Part shown: in pieces, positions 44,709 through 53,257 of the stretch | Numbering within the stretch: the first letter of the stretch is position 1 | Layout: every line of letters begins with the position of its first letter | DNA from: Rhodocollybia butyracea | Taxonomy: Eukaryota > Basidiomycota > Agaricomycetes > Agaricales > Omphalotaceae | Direction: 5' to 3' | Assembly: GCA_015501585.1 (NCBI GenBank) | Contig: JADNRY010000119.1 | Span: 62,001-126,000, forward strand | DNA: 64,000 nucleotides | Notes under the pieces: generated by a model | Told to the model about the DNA's origin: nothing | The model's input: only the letters and a program-made list of their open reading frames with translations | The model's database searches: none | Made by a program: the position numbers and the translations under genes

Positions 44709-44717
44709 GTAGTTCGC
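44709..44717. repeat. Left 9-bp target-site duplication of the MULE
   Basis: GTAGTTCGC, identical to 53249-53257. Nine base pairs is the usual Mutator/MULE duplication length. Confidence 0.93.
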
Positions 44718-44860
44718 GGAAAGCGTGGCTGCACAAAACTTCGTAATGCGCGACGCATAAGCGATAGGGTAATGTCATTTACTAAAGGCGTGTGTAAGAA
44801 TTTCTCAAGAGCAGGTGACAGACAGATAACAGACAGATAAGATTTTATTTAGATAAGATT
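44718..44860 (+). repeat. Left terminal inverted repeat of the MULE
   Basis: It aligns with the reverse complement of 53118-53248: GCACAAAACTTCGTAA, then TAAGCGATAG.GTAATG, then AAGAGCAGGTGACAGA, then ATTTAGATAAGAT. The left copy has an extra 10-bp duplication of the CAGACAGATA unit. Confidence 0.92.
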
Positions 44861-45194
44861 GTTCTACCGTCGCGTCGCGTCATTAATCGCACAATCAGTT
44901 AGGCGCGCTCTCCGCTCTTTAGCCGCAGTTCCTTGGATTGACAGGACGCTTCTCTTCTCCAGATATCACAAAATAAAAACCTGTCAACCGTCCCCAAAAG
45001 ATCGCAATCTAAGGGCCCGATACCGGAGGGAAACGCTCCTGCAGAATGCTTTATAGGCGTCATTTGGGGCTCTGTTTTCCCCCATTCTTTTCTCTTTTCT
45101 ATCCTCTCGCTTTCTTGAAACCTTGCGTTCTCGTCCTCTCGCTTTCTCACTTTCTCACTCTTGCTCTCATTTATTCCGTCCATCTGCTCGAAAA

Positions 45195-46481
45195 ATGCCC
45201 GCAGACCGTTTTATCAGTGCCTACGACGCAGATGGCAGAGCCACTGACTTTCCCTAGTACGTGTTCTCCTCTCCCTCGTTTATTTTATTATATGTTTCCG
45301 CTAAATTTATTTTCTAGCCCGTATGCAGCTAACGGCCTTCCTGAACTGCCCAAGCGCGTTGTTCAGATGCAATCCGAGTACGAAATAAACCTGTTCTGAG
45401 CGCATAGGCTACGCTGCAAAGTGTGGTACGTTAACCCGACCAGTAGTTTTCTTTGCTGTCCGAACCAGAAGAACCATCGTTGCGGTCTTTACCGTAAGTC
45501 GTTCCTTTATTTCCTATTAAAGCGGGTTTTGAATAGTTTCTTAGTTAAGATAGACGATATCCATGCTCCTCTTCTTCAAGGGTATTGCGCCAGCCAAACG
45601 AAACCTTCTGGTCCATACCCATCTCCGCCCGCTTCACGCAAGAGGCCCTCCGTTAATTCAGAAACTAATACAACCCCTACAAAACGTCAGAAGAAATCGT
45701 CGAAGGTTCCTGAGTCTCCGCCTCTGTCTACCACTGCTACAGCTACCAGCAACCTTCCTTCTCCGTACATTCCAAAAGGAACGTACTTTACAAGCCCCCC
45801 CTTGGAGCTTAAGGGACCCCTTCTACCTGACGCTGACGATGATGGTGCGTATTTCTTCCTTTCGCAAGTGGGAGAGTAGGACGTTTACATATTTTATATA
45901 GAAATTGTTTCGTTTTTCACCGACGTTAAAGATGCAACGGTGGGTCTTAAGGGGGTGCTTATCTACGATGATTCCAGTAAGTGTTATATCCCCCGTTTAT
46001 CTACTGAACGTTATGAACAAATTTCTGGCAGAGACGTCTTTCGGGATTTTTACGCACCTTTCCACCGTTGACATTGCCATCCTTATCCAGCAACTCAGAG
46101 ACGTATTGTTCCCAGGAACCCAAGCTGGTAGGTTTCCTAGGCATTATGGGAGTTTTTGCGTTCGCTGATTGATTTGCAGAGCTCATGCGCTTGATCCAGG
46201 ACGTCCCTGGCGCTGGAATTGGGAAGAACAATGAAATGATTGGACCACCTCCGTTGCTTGCTACGGGTACGTCCCTTAACTTTATCCGTTCTCGACTTTT
46301 ACAGTCCCACCAGGTTTGACGGCGGACGATCCTATCGATGTAGATTTAGGTACGCTATCCTATTCTATCATTGAGCTAGCTAATACATTTTTTAGAAGTC
46401 GAAGTCTGCGCCGATTGTGGTTGGGAGGTTGACTCCGACATTCACTGGGAACTTTGTTTTGGTATGACTCGAGACGGTTGA
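45195..46481 (+). CDS. MULE cargo protein with C-terminal C2HC metal site
   Basis: Exon 1 starts MPADRFISAYDADGRATDFP at 45195. The next piece reads YPYAANGLPELPKRVVQMQSEYEINLF. Further exons encode a Ser/Pro-rich basic region with a candidate nuclear signal (TPTKRQKKSSK, about 45680), then FTDVKDATVGLKGVLIYDDS (about 45915-45970). The final exon DLEVEVCADCGWEVDSDIHWELC ends at 46481 with a CX2C...HX3C arrangement that could bind zinc. The joint near 45398-45420 contains a stop in the simplest reading; a 1-nt indel or an unrecognised intron is needed there. The family is unknown to me. Its place inside the TIRs, convergent with the dioxygenase, argues for a transposon-borne role such as DNA or protein binding. 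Confidence 0.55.
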
Positions 46482-46692
46482 ACCCAAACCTGCACCTTGC
46501 TAGCTATTGGTGTACGAAACACCGCCTGTTTATTGTGCCTCAATACTTAATCGCTCTAATCATTAAAAAAGAAATCAATAACTGTAATACTGTATGTACT
46601 CACTCGTTTATGCACCGTACCCAATATGATTGTAACTTGATTGTAACTTGTACTTGAATGCAGAGCTCGTTGAGAAGTACTAATGGTATCGT

Positions 46693-48187
46693 TTATTCCA
46701 ACATACTAAGTAACTCGTCTACTGTAGAATATAGACCTAAGCGTCGAGAAACAGCTGTTGCCTTGTCCTGTATCATCTGGCAATAGCGAACAGGGTCTGC
46801 CTTCTTTAAGTTATCCTCTGTCAAACATCCGTTCTCAACCCAACGAAATATTGCTCCAGCGGTGTACTGAGTGAATGACGTTCGAATGTCACCTTCTGCA
46901 ACCGGGGTGTTCGAGTGAGTGATGACGGCGGAGGGGATTAGAATGGTGGATGCATGGGGAAAGTCGATAACGAGCTTCAACTCCCACAGAATGAGCTGCG
47001 CGCTTTGTGTTGCATCGAAATTCCCCAGTGCTGTAATGGCGCACCAGCCGAAAGTCCAGTTCTGGAAATCCCGGTGCTTGAATGTCCATACATTTCCTCC
47101 AAAGTTAAATGCAGCAGCGCCAAAAACTCCACCCGGGAAGTTGTTCCGGAGACTAGGCACCTTCTCCCACATGGTCTTTGTTGTATTTTCGTACACCTCG
47201 TAGACCCTCGGGGCCCAAAGAGAAAACGCTGCTATTGAGAATGAATACCCAAATATGAGAGATACAGAGAAACTTACTGTTCTGATACATCGCCATCCTA
47301 CGCACAGACTTGTGGCCAACAAGGCGCTCCAAAACTTCCGTCATATTCTTTGGATCCAGCTGGACGGGATGGGGGTTGCCCATACCCATGCTAGCCCCGC
47401 AATTGAAGGCCGGGAACCAACCCCGCGCACTGGCTCCTTCGGGCGAGGTCGCCTCTAGTCCAGCTTCTCTACCTTCTCGCGTCATCTCTTCAAACGCATC
47501 GCTAAGCTCAGAAGCATAGCCGGAGCCAGGTTGACCTGCAAGAACCCCAACAATACGGCCGAAGCAATCAATGAGGGGAAACGGAGTACTATGTAATTGG
47601 GGCTAATTAGGAAAATAACAGACAAATGGCAACAGATTGGCGTACATTCCATCCCACTTGATATGCTGAAATTCCCGCTGAAGAAGTTCAGTCAGAGAAT
47701 AAGTCCGACGCATATCTGCTTTGGAACCCCGTTGCTTTTTGGTCCCTGGTTTCGCGGTGTGGGCCCCCAGAGCAGCGTCGAAGTCGGCGGCGTTTAGATC
47801 AACTTTGATAGTGTTACCCTCTGACAGAACATTTGCAAGGGTTCGTTTTGAAGGCCCTGAGGCCGGAAGTTCTTCCTCTGCTTTTCGTTTTCGGTCCTCC
47901 CGTCGCTTGGAGTTGCGAAGGGATTGAACGGCGGGATTGGGCTTTGAACAGGGGCAGGAGGGGAGAGGAGGAGTTTTGGGCTTCTTATAAAAGAGGGGTT
48001 GGAGTAAGGTGGCGGCTTTTGAAAGTAGGGAAGGGGAGGGCGGAAGTGGCTGCGGAGTAGAGAGAATATCCGAAGCAGGTTCTGAGTAGGAGTAGGGAAG
48101 CTGTGCTTGTAATGCTGCGTGTTCTCGAGCCCGCCGGTTAGCAGTCTGGCGGCGGCGTTTATCGCGGCGTCGGGAATTATTGCGCAT
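46693..48187 (-). CDS. TET/JBP-family 2-oxoglutarate/Fe(II) DNA dioxygenase (2OGFeDO)
   Basis: Three exons join in frame to 463 aa: 47646-48187, 47278-47588 and 46693-47231. The start is ATG 48187. The N-terminus is highly basic (MRNNSRRRDKRRRQTANRR), followed by a Pro-rich linker. The double-stranded beta-helix core in the C-terminal half has the Fe(II) HxD motif in FKHRDFQNWTFGWCAITALG, the strand LILWELKLVIDFPHASTILIPSA, the distal His in ITHSNTPV, and the 2-oxoglutarate-binding Arg candidate in GDIRTSFTQYTAG. The family oxidises 5-methylcytosine or thymine in DNA. All expected catalytic residues are present and the frame is intact, so an active enzyme is plausible. It is carried within the MULE about 1.5 kb from the transposase and in the same orientation. 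Confidence 0.9.
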
Positions 48188-49682
48188 TTGAACCCCCGTC
48201 CCTCGTCTATCCCCAAATCGTCTTCTTCGTCAATTCCTAGGTCCCTCCCTATGGGAATTTGAGGTGCATCTGCTATAGATGCTTGAGTAAGTGCCAGAAA
48301 GTCGAATCCAGGAGGGGCACTAAGGGGTTGAACTCGCTGCAGAGTCTAGCATCAATTCGGGTGGCTCTGGGAACCGTAGTCTGTTGCTTACTGCGTTATT
48401 TAATAGGTAGATCATGTATTAAAATTATCTGTGTCTAGAAGAGGGTATAACTCTAATCAGCCTGTCAATCCTGGAGAAAAGGGAAGGAAGATACGCTGGA
48501 AGCCCCAAGCTTAACTTTTAGACTGGAGGACGCAGTTAGGTCCGATAGGGTCCGAACCAGTAGCCCTGCATCCTTAACAGCCTATCATAAAGCTCCCAGG
48601 GCTTCCTAGGCGCGTCCATACGCGTCGAATGTTACCCCGTCCACCCCAGAGGGATCCAGAACTGAAGTTCCGATTCGCCGCTCTGAGGCTTCTGGGGTTC
48701 ATTCATATGCGCTAAAATAAAGAGGAATATGGGCAGAGACTTACCTTAAGCTAACCGTACTAAGTTCCAGCGTTATCAGTCGTTGTAGTTGGTAGAAGAA
48801 AGGTAGTCAACAGAATCTAGCGCCTTGTTACGCGCCCACGTGATGGGCGCTAATTCAATCACCATTATTCATAATATTCATTGACCGTCTCCTCCTCCAC
48901 TCACAGTCCAGAGATTCCGAGTACGACTCTTGAACCTCCGCGCGCGCAGAATGCTTTACAGCCGGTCACAATCTTAGCCTTTTTCACTGGGTTCACCTCC
49001 ATCTCTCTCTCCTCGTAGTTGTATGCAGCTGTGCTACGACTCTTACAGCTACAACTCTTACAAACGCCCATGACCATGCTACCGCTAACTTTATCTCCAT
49101 TGTTTCCGCCTCCCTTGACTATTATCCTACTTTCAGCGCTCTGTTTCCCTCAATCCAGGGTTCGTCCCCGACTGCCTACGCACCCCCCAGTGAAGGCAGG
49201 CTAAAGGACCAAATACTCGGACTGGAGAAGGATGAAATGCGCTTTCAATAGGTTGGGTTGTGCTGTTTGCTACGATTCAAACTGAGGAGACAAGCTACTT
49301 GTTAGTTACGCTGTAGTTTAAGTAAGTAGCCTAAAGGCGTTGTCCTATATAGATAAGCTAATGTATCCCCCTTGAGATCTTCCGTATTTGCTTCATCTCC
49401 GGAGATGGAGCCCGAAGAATAGGACCGGATTGTGCACGAATGAGCTTCCGGGACTTGATTCTGGGAATGGGATCGTCCTGCTGCTGCGGTGAAGCTGGAA
49501 CGGAGGAAGGCGCTGGGTCAGAGGCTTTCGTGTCTGCAACAAGTAACTTAGACAGCGCGGAGGATAGAGAATCTAGCGTATGTATGAACTCCATTATCTC
49601 AGGGTTTCACTGAGATTGGAAGCTCCTGCCAATGTGCTTTCCATTCCGTATAGTCGAGGGAGAAGGGAACTAGCTTCGTGTG
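48188..49682. other. Interior of the MULE between dioxygenase and transposase
   Basis: No confirmed gene. A minus-strand frame at 49358-49594 (MEFIHTLDSLSSALSKLL..., then basic) could be the last exon of the transposase or a separate small gene; I could not join it. The remainder would contain the promoter of the dioxygenase. Confidence 0.4.
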
Positions 49683-52600
49683 TTATACGATTACAGATCT
49701 GTGCATTAATCGAGGCTTTTTGTCCTTCATAAAGATTTGCAGGCTAGAAGGGATCAGGATTAAATTTGTATTCGTTATAGGAATGAGCTGAACAAACCAA
49801 ATCAAGGGTTCAGAACTGCCCGTATCCAATGTATCAAAATCGCTATCACTGCCCTGCTCACCGTCAGACTCATGATCGAGTTCACCACCTAACACGCTCA
49901 TATCACCTCCAAGTGCTTGCAGAGCTCGCCAAGCAGATACATCGACTGTTTCCACAGGCAGAGGTAGCGGAAGTACCGCCTCAAGTGAGGGAGTAGACTC
50001 TCTAGGAGGTTCTGTGCGCTGTTTTATTCCTTGGGCAATTGCAAGAGTTGGCGGATAGCACAGCGGAGCGCATAATCCCTGAGCCACCCACGTCTCGATA
50101 GAAGTTCGAAACGCACGCAAGTGTTTACAAGCTCCCCGCGACTGTAGAAATCTGGACAGTTGCAGGATCCATTTCCGTTTCGATAGAGCTTGACCTCGTA
50201 GGGAGAAATGCCTGGTGTAGAGGAACTACAAAGGCAGGAGAATACATCCTTTTCTGGCGTGACAACTAGACCATGAAACCTGTTTGTTCTAATAATCTCT
50301 TTTGCTTGTATATCCCGTGCGGTATCCGTTGGCCACCAGCACACACTTCGGAGAACTCGGGAACGTTCTTCCTTGGACTCGGCCAGTTTCTTTTGTAAGT
50401 CTAAGAGGTTGTGACCACCAGCAGCCACGGAAAAGCGTTCGTTAAGGAAACGACGGTGTTCCCGTAGGAGACGACGGTGGTTGTATATTTGAGGGAGGAT
50501 TTGTGTGATTAGGAGGAAGATAAGGATATCGAACCGAAGTCGGTGGCCAGAGTGTACGTGCTGTTGAATATATTTTCTCTTCAGAACCGCGTTGAATGAT
50601 TCAAGGTGATTAGTAGTAGGGATGATGCCCTCGACTGGGATTTTTATTGCGGCTGCAACAGTTAAACGACCCCACTCCGACCAGCTCTGCCAGAGTGAAA
50701 GGCTCATCCAGTTAGCGTCAAGGTAGTTGAGATGGGCAAGTCCACCCTCTGCTGCCGGCTGCGCTGTGTTATTTGTGAGTAGGCCAGTCAGGTACTCACG
50801 TTGATTTGCGATCAAAGTAGTAGCACTAGAGTGCTCTACCGTCAAGATGAGTCTAAAAATCATACGTCAATAAAAATAGATGAGGGTAGAGCTGCACGAA
50901 CTTGGTTTCAAGAGTAAAGAGGTATCATTGACTTTATTACCCACGAATCAATGGATTCCGATGATTTGATCTTTACGGCCTTTTTACGATGATTTGTCCA
51001 GCACTGTCGAAGATGGAACTTGCAAAGGAGGAGAATGATTGAAGCCCACGTGTTCAAGAGAGCCCGCGCTCCTTTGTATCTGTATCCGTGATACATGAGC
51101 GAGGCTCAAATGCACCATACCTGCGAACGATATCAGCCTTCCAAGCAGCCAGAAGTTTGGTAAGTATTGCTGTATTGTACGATGCATGAGTTGCTTTGGC
51201 ACCCGTCGACGCTGAGAATAGGAAAAATGCAATCGGAAGTCCCTTGCGATCTTCATCAATAGCCAATGCAATAAATAGCAAGAGTCGTGAACTGCATATG
51301 CCAAACGTACCATCCAACACCATCTGAGAGTGGTGAGCATACTTGTGAGCAGCTTCGCTCATCTCTGGAGTGGATATGCAGACCTCGAAACGGTCGCCGC
51401 GCTCTGCACGTTTGGAATAGTGGAAAACAGCTTCTGATATCTCTGACCTGAAGTTTGGGCTATGAGGGTTAAGCCAGTCGTCCACATTATATTGCGGAAG
51501 CTCCCGAGTATCCACGCCGAGTCCTTTTGCGGCCTTGCGATAGAGGAGGAATGGTCGGTAGGGAGGAATATGTAACGAACGTTAGCTGTAGCGGGGTCGT
51601 AGGTCTTCATGTCATGATACCGTTTGGCGTTCATCATCTCTTGATTCTTTTCTTGAATTGCAGTTATACTAAAACAAATAAGCCGAACGATTGAGCCCGT
51701 GTAATTGAATTTACCTTGCACCATTACGGAGCTGTTCAAGAGCAACTTCGTATACGTGCTCATGAAGCGGAACCGGAGGCGGCGTTCAAGAACAGCGTTT
51801 TGGCAAGCTGCGTTATGATCAAGTATTCCTGCAATCCAAGTAACACGGCCGTCATCTTGCTCGATGATTTCTATGTGAGCTAGACAACCGGTGAACGGAT
51901 AAGGCGTAGAGCGTTCCCAGTCCCCTTTGTAGTTACTAGCGCCTTTACTCTCTTCCAATTTCTGTCGAGAATGGTGGTCATATCCACAACGGCTGGTAAT
52001 TAATTAGTATCGGTAGGTAGCTGAAATGGGATACAAACCATTGAAACAAAGTACGCTTTCGCGTGTTATTAGACCATTTTACTGAATGTCGGACGCTCCA
52101 TCGCGTTGTAAGATCTTTACGTGCGTCTGAATCAAGCCCTAGTTCTTGGAGTTTCTTCAGTGCCTTCTGCTGCTGCAATTTGTCAAGTGAATATTCCTCT
52201 GAGAAATGGCGGAATGAGGCGTAGATATTTTCGATAACAGATTTTTGCGCTTCGTTAATGCACAGTCTCGTTATTAATACCTTGGGCAGTTATGGGCGGA
52301 GTTTCTCTTCCAAAAACCTACTGGACGTACGTGCTTTTTTATCTCTGGAATCACCGGGTTCTTAAATAATGAGGAGTCCTCGAATGGGGCTGCAGTTTGA
52401 ACGAAAGGCTGTTTCTTCCATTCATACCATTCATAACGTAGTATGTAGGAATGCACTTACCGATGGAGAATGAAAGTCCTGTAGTGAAAAGGAACGGTGG
52501 GGAGATGCGGGAGCGCTGTCTGACCGGGGCCGTTTTAACGAGTCCTTTGTACACAAGTTAGAGAACAAATAATGCTAGAGATTAGCGACACCGACAGGAT

Positions 52601-52703
52601 TTAAAAATAGGCTAGGTTCTTCGATTGAGAACTTGGCCGTATCATTGACAAACGGCGAGAGCTCCGCTAGATCCATGAGCGGAAAATTAGTATACGGAGG
52701 CAT
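49683..52703 (-). pseudogene. MULE transposase with SWIM zinc finger, two frameshifts
   Basis: It starts MPPYTNFPLMDLAELSPFVNDT at 52703 and has several short introns. A DNA-binding N-terminal region (TGCLAHIEI, then ILDHNAACQNAV) is followed by the MULE catalytic core. That core contains the first Asp in MVLDGTFGICSSRLLLFIAL, ITDTDTKERGALL, and LLLCKFHLRQCWTNHR. The core ends with NHLESFNAVLKRKYI and a SWIM finger begun by CNCPDFYSRG. Two single-base losses break the frame. One is at about 51541-51546, between LPTDHSS and YRKAAKGLGV. The other is in a C-run at 50134-50137 (plus strand), inside the SWIM finger, where CKH is in a different frame from CNC. As read, it could not make a full transposase. 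Confidence 0.85.
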
Positions 52704-53117
52704 GGTAGAGGCGGCGTTTCGTTGCGTTTGTCGCGGTTTGAGCTCAGGTAAATTCTCGAATCTGCGTCACTGTTCTTGGGCTCATCACTGCGCTTAATTC
52801 GGCCAGTGTTTGCGAATCAAGATTAAGCGTAGATAAAGTACAAGAAAAGTATACTTTTGTATTGATTTTCTTGGAGCTCTCGCCGATAGTGAGCGATCTT
52901 GACCCAATGCTGTATTCAAAACTTGACATGAAGCCGACGAAAGTTGTTGTGACATCGGAGCCAAGAGACTGGCACTGGAGAAGAAGAGCCCTGATATCAC
53001 ATCGTTGTACCAATTTGGAAACGAAGATCACCAATCTAGCAACGAAGATCACCAAGTCGGATGGCGAGTCCGAGTTTCCGTCGCTTCAGCTTTGGCGCGA
53101 AGCTCATCTATCTATCT

Positions 53118-53248
53118 ATCTTATCTAAATGAAATCTTATCTATCTGTCACCTGCTCTTGCAAAAGCATGACACACGCCTTGAGTAAATACCATTACTCT
53201 ATCGCTTACGCGTTGCGCTTTACGAAGTTTTGTGCGGGCGCGATTTCC
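53118..53248 (-). repeat. Right terminal inverted repeat of the MULE
   Basis: Inverted partner of 44718-44860. Inside it on the plus strand is a CTAT microsatellite (53105-53120). Confidence 0.92.
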
Positions 53249-53257
53249 GTAGTTCGC
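53249..53257. repeat. Right 9-bp target-site duplication of the MULE
   Basis: GTAGTTCGC, identical to 44709-44717. Confidence 0.93.

Follow-up and report, generated by a model that had tools for sequence, protein, structure and literature searches.

A MULE transposon of Rhodocollybia butyracea that carries a TET/JBP-like dioxygenase gene, a candidate for a self-encoded anti-silencing enzyme

The element, its genes, and its insertion sites

The window analyzed here, a stretch of 64,000 nucleotides from the basidiomycete Rhodocollybia butyracea (contig JADNRY010000119.1, here C212), contains at positions 44718-53248 a complete MULE unit of 8,531 bp. Its features are listed by window position with the strand in parentheses; the copy in the window is called A, and further copies in the 95.6 Mb of genome searched are called B (contig C494), C (C877), D (C547), E (C1017), and F (C706).

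44709..44717 (no strand): left 9-bp target site duplication GTAGTTCGC, a perfect match to the right one
44718..44859 (+): left terminal inverted repeat, starting GGAAAGCGTGGCTGCACAAAACTTCGTAA, with 6 CpG in its outer 60 bp
45195..46481 (+): ORF3, the third gene of the element, with 8 exons by comparison with copy F and an in-frame TGA near 45397 in the window copy
46693..48187 (-): gene for a TET/JBP-like dioxygenase, its open frame of 463 aa starting at an internal ATG, with exons 47646-48187, 47278-47588, and 46693-47231 and splice sites placed by hand
46912..46926 (-): VITHS codons, second iron-binding His
47068..47082 (-): FKHRD codons, iron-binding HxD, with Asn at the predicted 5mC-pocket place three residues past the Asp
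48913..49202 (no strand): 290-bp stretch in copies A and C, missing from B and D
49358..52289 (-): core exons of the MULE transposase gene, which is frameshifted in the window copy and intact in copy F
50135..50164 (-): start of the transposase SWIM finger (CxC...), whose CxH comes in another frame in the window copy
50591..50614 (-): transposase motif TNHLESFN in the window copy, which we take to hold the catalytic Glu
51078..51089 (-): transposase motif TDTD in the window copy, presumably the second catalytic Asp
51300..51317 (-): transposase motif LDGTFG in the window copy, assumed to provide the first catalytic Asp
53118..53248 (-): right terminal inverted repeat, with 8 CpG in its outer 60 bp
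53249..53257 (no strand): right 9-bp target site duplication GTAGTTCGC, a perfect match to the left one

The terminal inverted repeats (TIRs) are about 140 bp long and are complementary at 84% over 113 nt and at 89% over 37 nt. Target duplications of MULEs range from 8 to 11 bp. Copies B, C, and D, found with the left end of the window element, are each flanked by a perfect 9-bp duplication (ACGTTGTTT, TTCATCGAT, and TTGAACTTA, respectively), and copy F (C706:23511-31864; duplication ATCACTTAG) represents a sister subfamily with a diverged TIR and a DNA likeness to the window-type elements of about 65-82%, counted over alignable parts only. A perfect 9-bp duplication, different each time, borders every one of the five complete elements (A, B, C, D, and F), which all hold the TET and the transposase gene; ORF3 is present in these five and in the truncated copy E. 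The family is thus represented by five independent insertions, each with transposase, TET, and ORF3. An earlier sequence-only reading of this 8.5-kb unit had its coordinates, its inverted termini with their TIRs, and its perfect 9-bp duplication right.

The empty site of the window insertion lies on contig C770, where the flanks are joined without a gap around one copy of the target and are identical at 195 of 200 positions. Because C770 is an empty allele, the 8.5 kb including the TET gene arrived in a single event. Five elements with their own duplications, together with this empty site, bear out the earlier proposal that the TET gene is part of the MULE and is mobilized together with it, and we regard capture of TET by the MULE and their co-mobility as practically certain. 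For copy F, no near-identical second copy of the flanks was found, and hence no empty site was seen. Over this region C212 and C770 are 98-99% identical, and both of its alleles, at least, were assembled, so that copy counts may include allelic pairs.

Short elements of 0.55 kb (MITEs; L016, L017, L018, and L020) have the outer 33 bp of the TIR in common with the element, their likeness to it by BLAST being limited to about 70 bp at the ends; a perfect 9-bp duplication was found in three of five MITEs. An apparent 8.2-kb copy on contig C728 (L019, 125-8348) was rejected as a full element, as it proved to be a MITE interrupted by about 7.7 kb of other DNA. By eye, the 290-bp stretch at 48913-49202 has short inverted ends.

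The transposase frame in the window changes at least three times, near 51.78, 51.06, and 50.1 kb, although assembly errors are possible at these points. Copy F encodes an uninterrupted spliced product, modelled at 945 aa without its N-terminus, in which DGTFG, TDTD, TNHLESFN, and the CxC...CxH finger all lie in one open frame. The gene of copy B has one stop and one frame change, that of copy C is split by a 1.85-kb insertion, and that of copy D by several insertions. Against the PF10551 model (cut-off 27.6 bits), copy F scored 29.5 bits for the 773-aa part scanned and a Lentinula relative (P0123) 31.4; C494, C877, and C706 were above the cut-off and C547 just below it, and the window exon alone, from the frameshifted gene, reached 14.3 bits, below the cut-off. 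With the SWIM zinc finger model (cut-off 19.6 bits), P0123 scored 21.1 and copy F 12.9, with CxC...CxH visible in the latter. The element is a MULE by its transposase domain, its D/D/E motifs, its 9-bp duplication, and its SWIM finger. Of the SWIM-finger MULE transposase first read in the window, the motifs are present; the window gene itself is frameshifted, and the intact version is that of copy F.

ORF3 was omitted from the sequence-only reading. In copy F it encodes 308 aa with two Cys/His clusters discernible by eye, and it matched 11 proteins, including seven from Rhodocollybia and three from Lentinula, the only genera with named relatives. A Pfam search with ORF3 gave no match, and its structure model (pLDDT 39.8) was too poor for a fold search.

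The TET-like protein, its relatives, and its exchange

The TET gene had been described as intact-looking with HxD...H. Its HxD, its His, and its open exons 2 and 3 hold up, but because the upstream part of exon 1 is out of frame relative to copy F, as read from the alignment, the window frame opens at an internal ATG. Single-base deletions occur in exon 1 of copy B and in exon 2 of copies C and D. Pfam placed the protein weakly: the window exon scored 14.4 bits against PF12851 (Tet_JBP; cut-off 34.9), five of 21 relatives matched at E<=0.1 (best 1.6e-5), and the best match to this model in the whole genome reached 25.5 bits, none being above the cut-off. Sequence and profile searches of solved structures with P0001 (the annotated TET gene of copy F), profile A1, P0097, and two further TET exons of the same genome returned no TET match. 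A structural model of P0001 (pLDDT 84.9) ranked closest to CcTet of Coprinopsis cinerea, followed by NgTET1 and TET2, all above AlkB, FTO, and PHD2. On this model, the copy-F protein clearly has the predicted double-stranded beta-helix fold of the TET/JBP type, with TET structures as its nearest neighbors. All 21 relatives keep the HxD and nearly all keep the downstream His, and in an alignment of 11 rows neither varies.

The genome holds at least 150 TET matches, which merge to at least 133 loci, and at least 144 matches to the KDZ transposase (PF18758), proximity being counted among the matches listed. Within 6 kb of a TET locus, a KDZ transposase was listed for none of the 25 loci with at least 56% identity to the window TET, for none of the ten between 48% and 56%, and for 27 of the 98 below 48% (0/25 vs 27/98, p 0.002). 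In a tree of 71 TET domains, all 12 MULE-labelled rows fell inside a 45-row clade (100/99) and all ten KDZ-linked rows, some with long branches, fell outside it. For ten of these 12 rows the transposase belongs to the same element or is no more than two locus tags away, the assignments of copy E and P0005 being weaker; the rest of the clade consists of 31 rows without a context assignment and two rows of a second clade without MULE. In this tree MULE-linked TETs are separate from KDZ-linked ones. The linkage of TET to KDZ that the earlier reading named for basidiomycetes is seen here too, in the 27 loci listed, and the separate placing of MULE-linked TETs that it suggested looking for was recovered both in the tree and in the absence of listed KDZ neighbors from the 25 close loci. 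At the pocket positions described below, eight of the ten KDZ-linked TETs (L023-L031 and L033) likewise carry Asn and Cys, and the other two gave no motif match; the Kyakuja AG type is described with Gly/Ser and Asp there.

The transposase queries matched six loci, five with TET and one, C993, holding just a fragment where its contig begins; family members without TET, which would have pointed to a chance association, were not seen among them. Six other PF10551 loci had no TET within 9 kb among the matches listed. Conversely, six of the 11 TET loci with at least 75% identity had no transposase within 9 kb among the matches listed, namely C1017, which runs into a contig end, and C222, C611, C1083, C1272, and C954, which were counted from the listing rather than from their sequence; these six may be broken elements or TETs outside MULEs. 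Fourteen loci, 56-75% identical to the window TET, make up the second TET clade, which groups weakly with the Rhodocollybia MULE TETs (92/69). Two of its loci, on C556 (L036+L035+L038) and C470 (L039+L034+L037), share a 5.5-kb block with TET that is 88% alike; neither the copy-F transposase nor ORF3 matched there, and TIRs were looked for without success.

In other species, TET and transposase matches were paired by shared contig and locus tags among the best 120 of 334 TET and the best 120 of 173 transposase matches. Among these, pairs no more than two locus tags apart occur in Paramarasmius palmivorus, Marasmius crinis-equi, M. tenuissimus, and twice in Marasmius sp. AFHP31, a linkage known from gene order rather than TIRs. 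A further listed pair lies on a 192-kb contig of Lentinula novae-zelandiae, and another on a 6.9-Mb contig, far apart. Across seven pairs, TET and transposase distances were correlated (r 0.59, permutation p 0.007), and in the transposase tree the seven TET-linked rows need five changes, the other rows being without TET status. The two trees conflict for Marasmius sp. AFHP31, whose TETs join Paramarasmius (100/99) and whose transposases join other Marasmius (100/99). Within R. butyracea, copies A and D are 96-98% identical over the TET block (2.0-4.2 kb of the element), 83-92% over the ORF3 region, and 79-84% at the transposase start, and copy B matches A in its left part and D in its right part. 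These comparisons show that the TET block has had a history different from the rest of the element. Given the uneven identity of A, B, and D together with the Marasmius conflict, exchange of the TET block between MULE subfamilies seems to be the best reading.

Methylation scars, selection, and the role of the TET

Copies A and C differ at 48 positions, 40 of which are CpG transitions. CpG bases make up 962 of the 8,496 compared, yet they hold 42 of the 48 changes (p 1e-33), and the corresponding figure for the allelic flanks is 5 of 28 (p 2e-8 against the A-C element). Where copies B or D allowed polarization, 25 of 27 A-C CpG transitions were CpG losses by hand count. Older pairs are less skewed (B-D 149/356, A-B 110/423, and A-D 203/704 CpG transitions), and MITE pairs, which are older and short, show no CpG dominance, with 3-10 CpG transitions among 8-36 changes. 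Such an excess of CpG transitions is what deamination of 5mC is expected to leave behind, and five PF00145 matches are present in the genome. In the 5' part of the transposase fewer CpG bases differ between A and C (4/344 vs 38/618 elsewhere), but this deficit is absent in B-D and so gives no evidence of local protection. CpG observed/expected is 0.97 in the element, 0.89 in the window to its left, and 0.81 to its right; the outer TIRs are CpG-dense in A-D, and the right end of F is not. From the A-C scars we infer that this MULE family was methylated despite its own TET, which gave the copies no lasting protection from methylation as far as this decay records it. The CpG-directed decay of methylated copies speaks against a full escape from silencing.

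Selection on the TET depends on the depth of the comparison. For exon 3, comparing E with A-D gave a dN/dS of 0.11-0.14 at a dS of about 0.3, and comparing F with the others gave 0.03-0.05, where dS of 1.5-2.3 is near saturation. Among young copies the TET values were 0.89 for A-C, on few changes, 0.54 for A-B, 0.38 for A-D, 0.33 for B-D, 0.32 for C-D, and 0.29 for B-C; for the transposase they were 0.09 for B-C, 0.06 for B-A, 0.20 for A-D, 0.22 for C-D, and 0.97 for B-D. These substitution ratios show purifying selection on the TET over longer times, and the difference between young and older comparisons suggests that copies decay after insertion while still-moving lineages keep the gene. Very probably, then, the TET is a useful part of the element.

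The reading that we favor, with a probability of about 0.6, is that the MULE carries the TET as a self-encoded, exchangeable anti-silencing enzyme, its activity and benefit being proposed on the evidence above. The host would methylate CpG of the element, including its CpG-rich TIRs, and the TET, acting in trans on members of the family, would oxidize 5mC there; this could keep or restore promoter activity and leave the TIRs accessible to the transposase until the element has moved, after which old copies would remain methylated and decay. Weighing against this reading are the scars on the copies, the six close TET loci with no transposase listed nearby, the near-neutral ratios between young copies, the single-base deletions in B, C, and D, the weak Pfam match, and the silencing that accompanies oxidized 5mC in two other Agaricales. 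Escape from silencing is accordingly put forward as the somewhat favored benefit of the TET.

An improbable alternative is that oxidized 5mC dampens expression, or labels copies that are excised or freshly replicated, and so limits movement to one phase of the life cycle. In Laccaria and Coprinopsis, both Agaricales, high levels of oxidized 5mC accompany silencing (PMC8889193), although stronger silencing would presumably be of little gain to an element. Slightly less plausible is a TET carried without benefit, as a captured gene of the Pack-MULE kind. The near-neutral A-C value and the single-base deletions in B, C, and D would fit such a passenger, but the low dN/dS over longer times (0.03-0.14), the retention of TET in five of five complete elements, and its recurrence across genera argue against it.

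Equally unlikely is a chemistry directed at, for example, 6mA or thymine rather than 5mC. CcTet, which has the nearest solved fold at about 11% identity, acts on both 5mC and 6mA, its use of 6mA being tied to the pair Gly331/Asp337; Gly331 corresponds to Asn1387 in TET2 and Asp234 in NgTET1, a side chain at this place binds 5mC and clashes with 6mA, and Asp337 corresponds to Thr1393 in TET2 (PMC11040006). Copies A-F and 106 of 120 homologues, however, have Asn and Cys 5 and 11 residues past the His of HxD, so that, by spacing from HxD rather than by structure, the 6mA pair is replaced and a conventional 5mC pocket is predicted, Asn at the first place being described as binding 5mC and clashing with 6mA (PMC11040006). 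The predicted chemistry of the MULE TET is therefore probably 5mC oxidation.

Finally, a single chance fall of a TET gene, or of another TET-carrying element, into a MULE has a negligible probability, for although TET is very abundant in this genome, it is ruled out by the empty site and by five insertions that share one gene set but differ in their duplications, and is further opposed by a sister element only about 65-82% alike in its alignable DNA and by TET-MULE gene neighbors in four other species.

The anti-silencing reading can be extended, more tentatively and at somewhat less than even odds, to an Agaricales MULE lineage that has had a dedicated 5mC-specific TET, with a conventional Asn pocket unlike that of CcTet, since before the split of Rhodocollybia, Lentinula, and Marasmius. 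Its TET would then be an anti-silencing module that passes from one MULE subfamily to another and clears methylation from CpG-rich TIRs, an enzymatic counterpart of VANC, the anti-silencing protein of the plant VANDAL MULEs. The intact sister copy and the single-allele insertion make the role of transposon TETs testable by 5mC/5hmC mapping and enzyme assay.

Comparison with known TET-carrying and anti-silencing transposons

In the abstract and the passages of results and discussion consulted, Kojima 2025 describes 11 lineages of TET-carrying fungal transposons and does not name MuDR/MULE among them (PMC12730594). Among the titles and abstracts covered for TET-carrying transposons we met no TET in a MULE/MuDR element; in the passages of one further paper (PMC8290104), the methods name MULE and Kyakuja, and TET/JBP occurs in the title of a cited reference. 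The present element resembles those of Kojima, as described there, in being a complete DNA transposon that encodes both its transposase and a TET/JBP protein, in its proposed escape from methylation, and in the exchange of TET between elements. It differs in its superfamily, MULE (MuDR), and in its 9-bp duplication, those described being 7 bp for Kyakuja, 8 bp for Zisupton and Dileera, 7 bp for hAT7, and 6 bp for IS3EU (PMC12730594). Unlike the AG type, for which that text reports finding no passage between superfamilies (PMC12730594), the MULE TET has Asn and Cys, at places set by spacing, and not Gly/Ser and Asp, and unlike the PE type it has HRD (HxD) and not HxE. The same replacement, of Gly331 and Asp337 by Asn and Cys, sets it apart from CcTet (7w5p, 7vpn, and 8jkk). 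In contrast to KDZ transposons, no KDZ transposase was listed within 6 kb of any of the 25 TET loci with at least 56% identity to the window TET.

An anti-silencing role for transposon TETs is not a new idea, since Kojima had already proposed it in the text consulted (PMC12730594). What is new is the evidence, namely a MULE carrier, an empty site, a predicted pocket, and methylation scars. A MULE is added to the superfamilies of fungal transposons that carry a TET-like enzyme, and complete copies, an empty site, and methylation scars are all readable in one genome. As stated in the same text, plant VANDAL MULEs encode a protein against their own epigenetic silencing (PMC12730594), and because self-encoded anti-silencing is known in plant MULEs, two routes to one end can be compared: in VANDAL, VANC is a sequence-specific regulator, whereas the agent proposed here is a 5mC-oxidizing enzyme.
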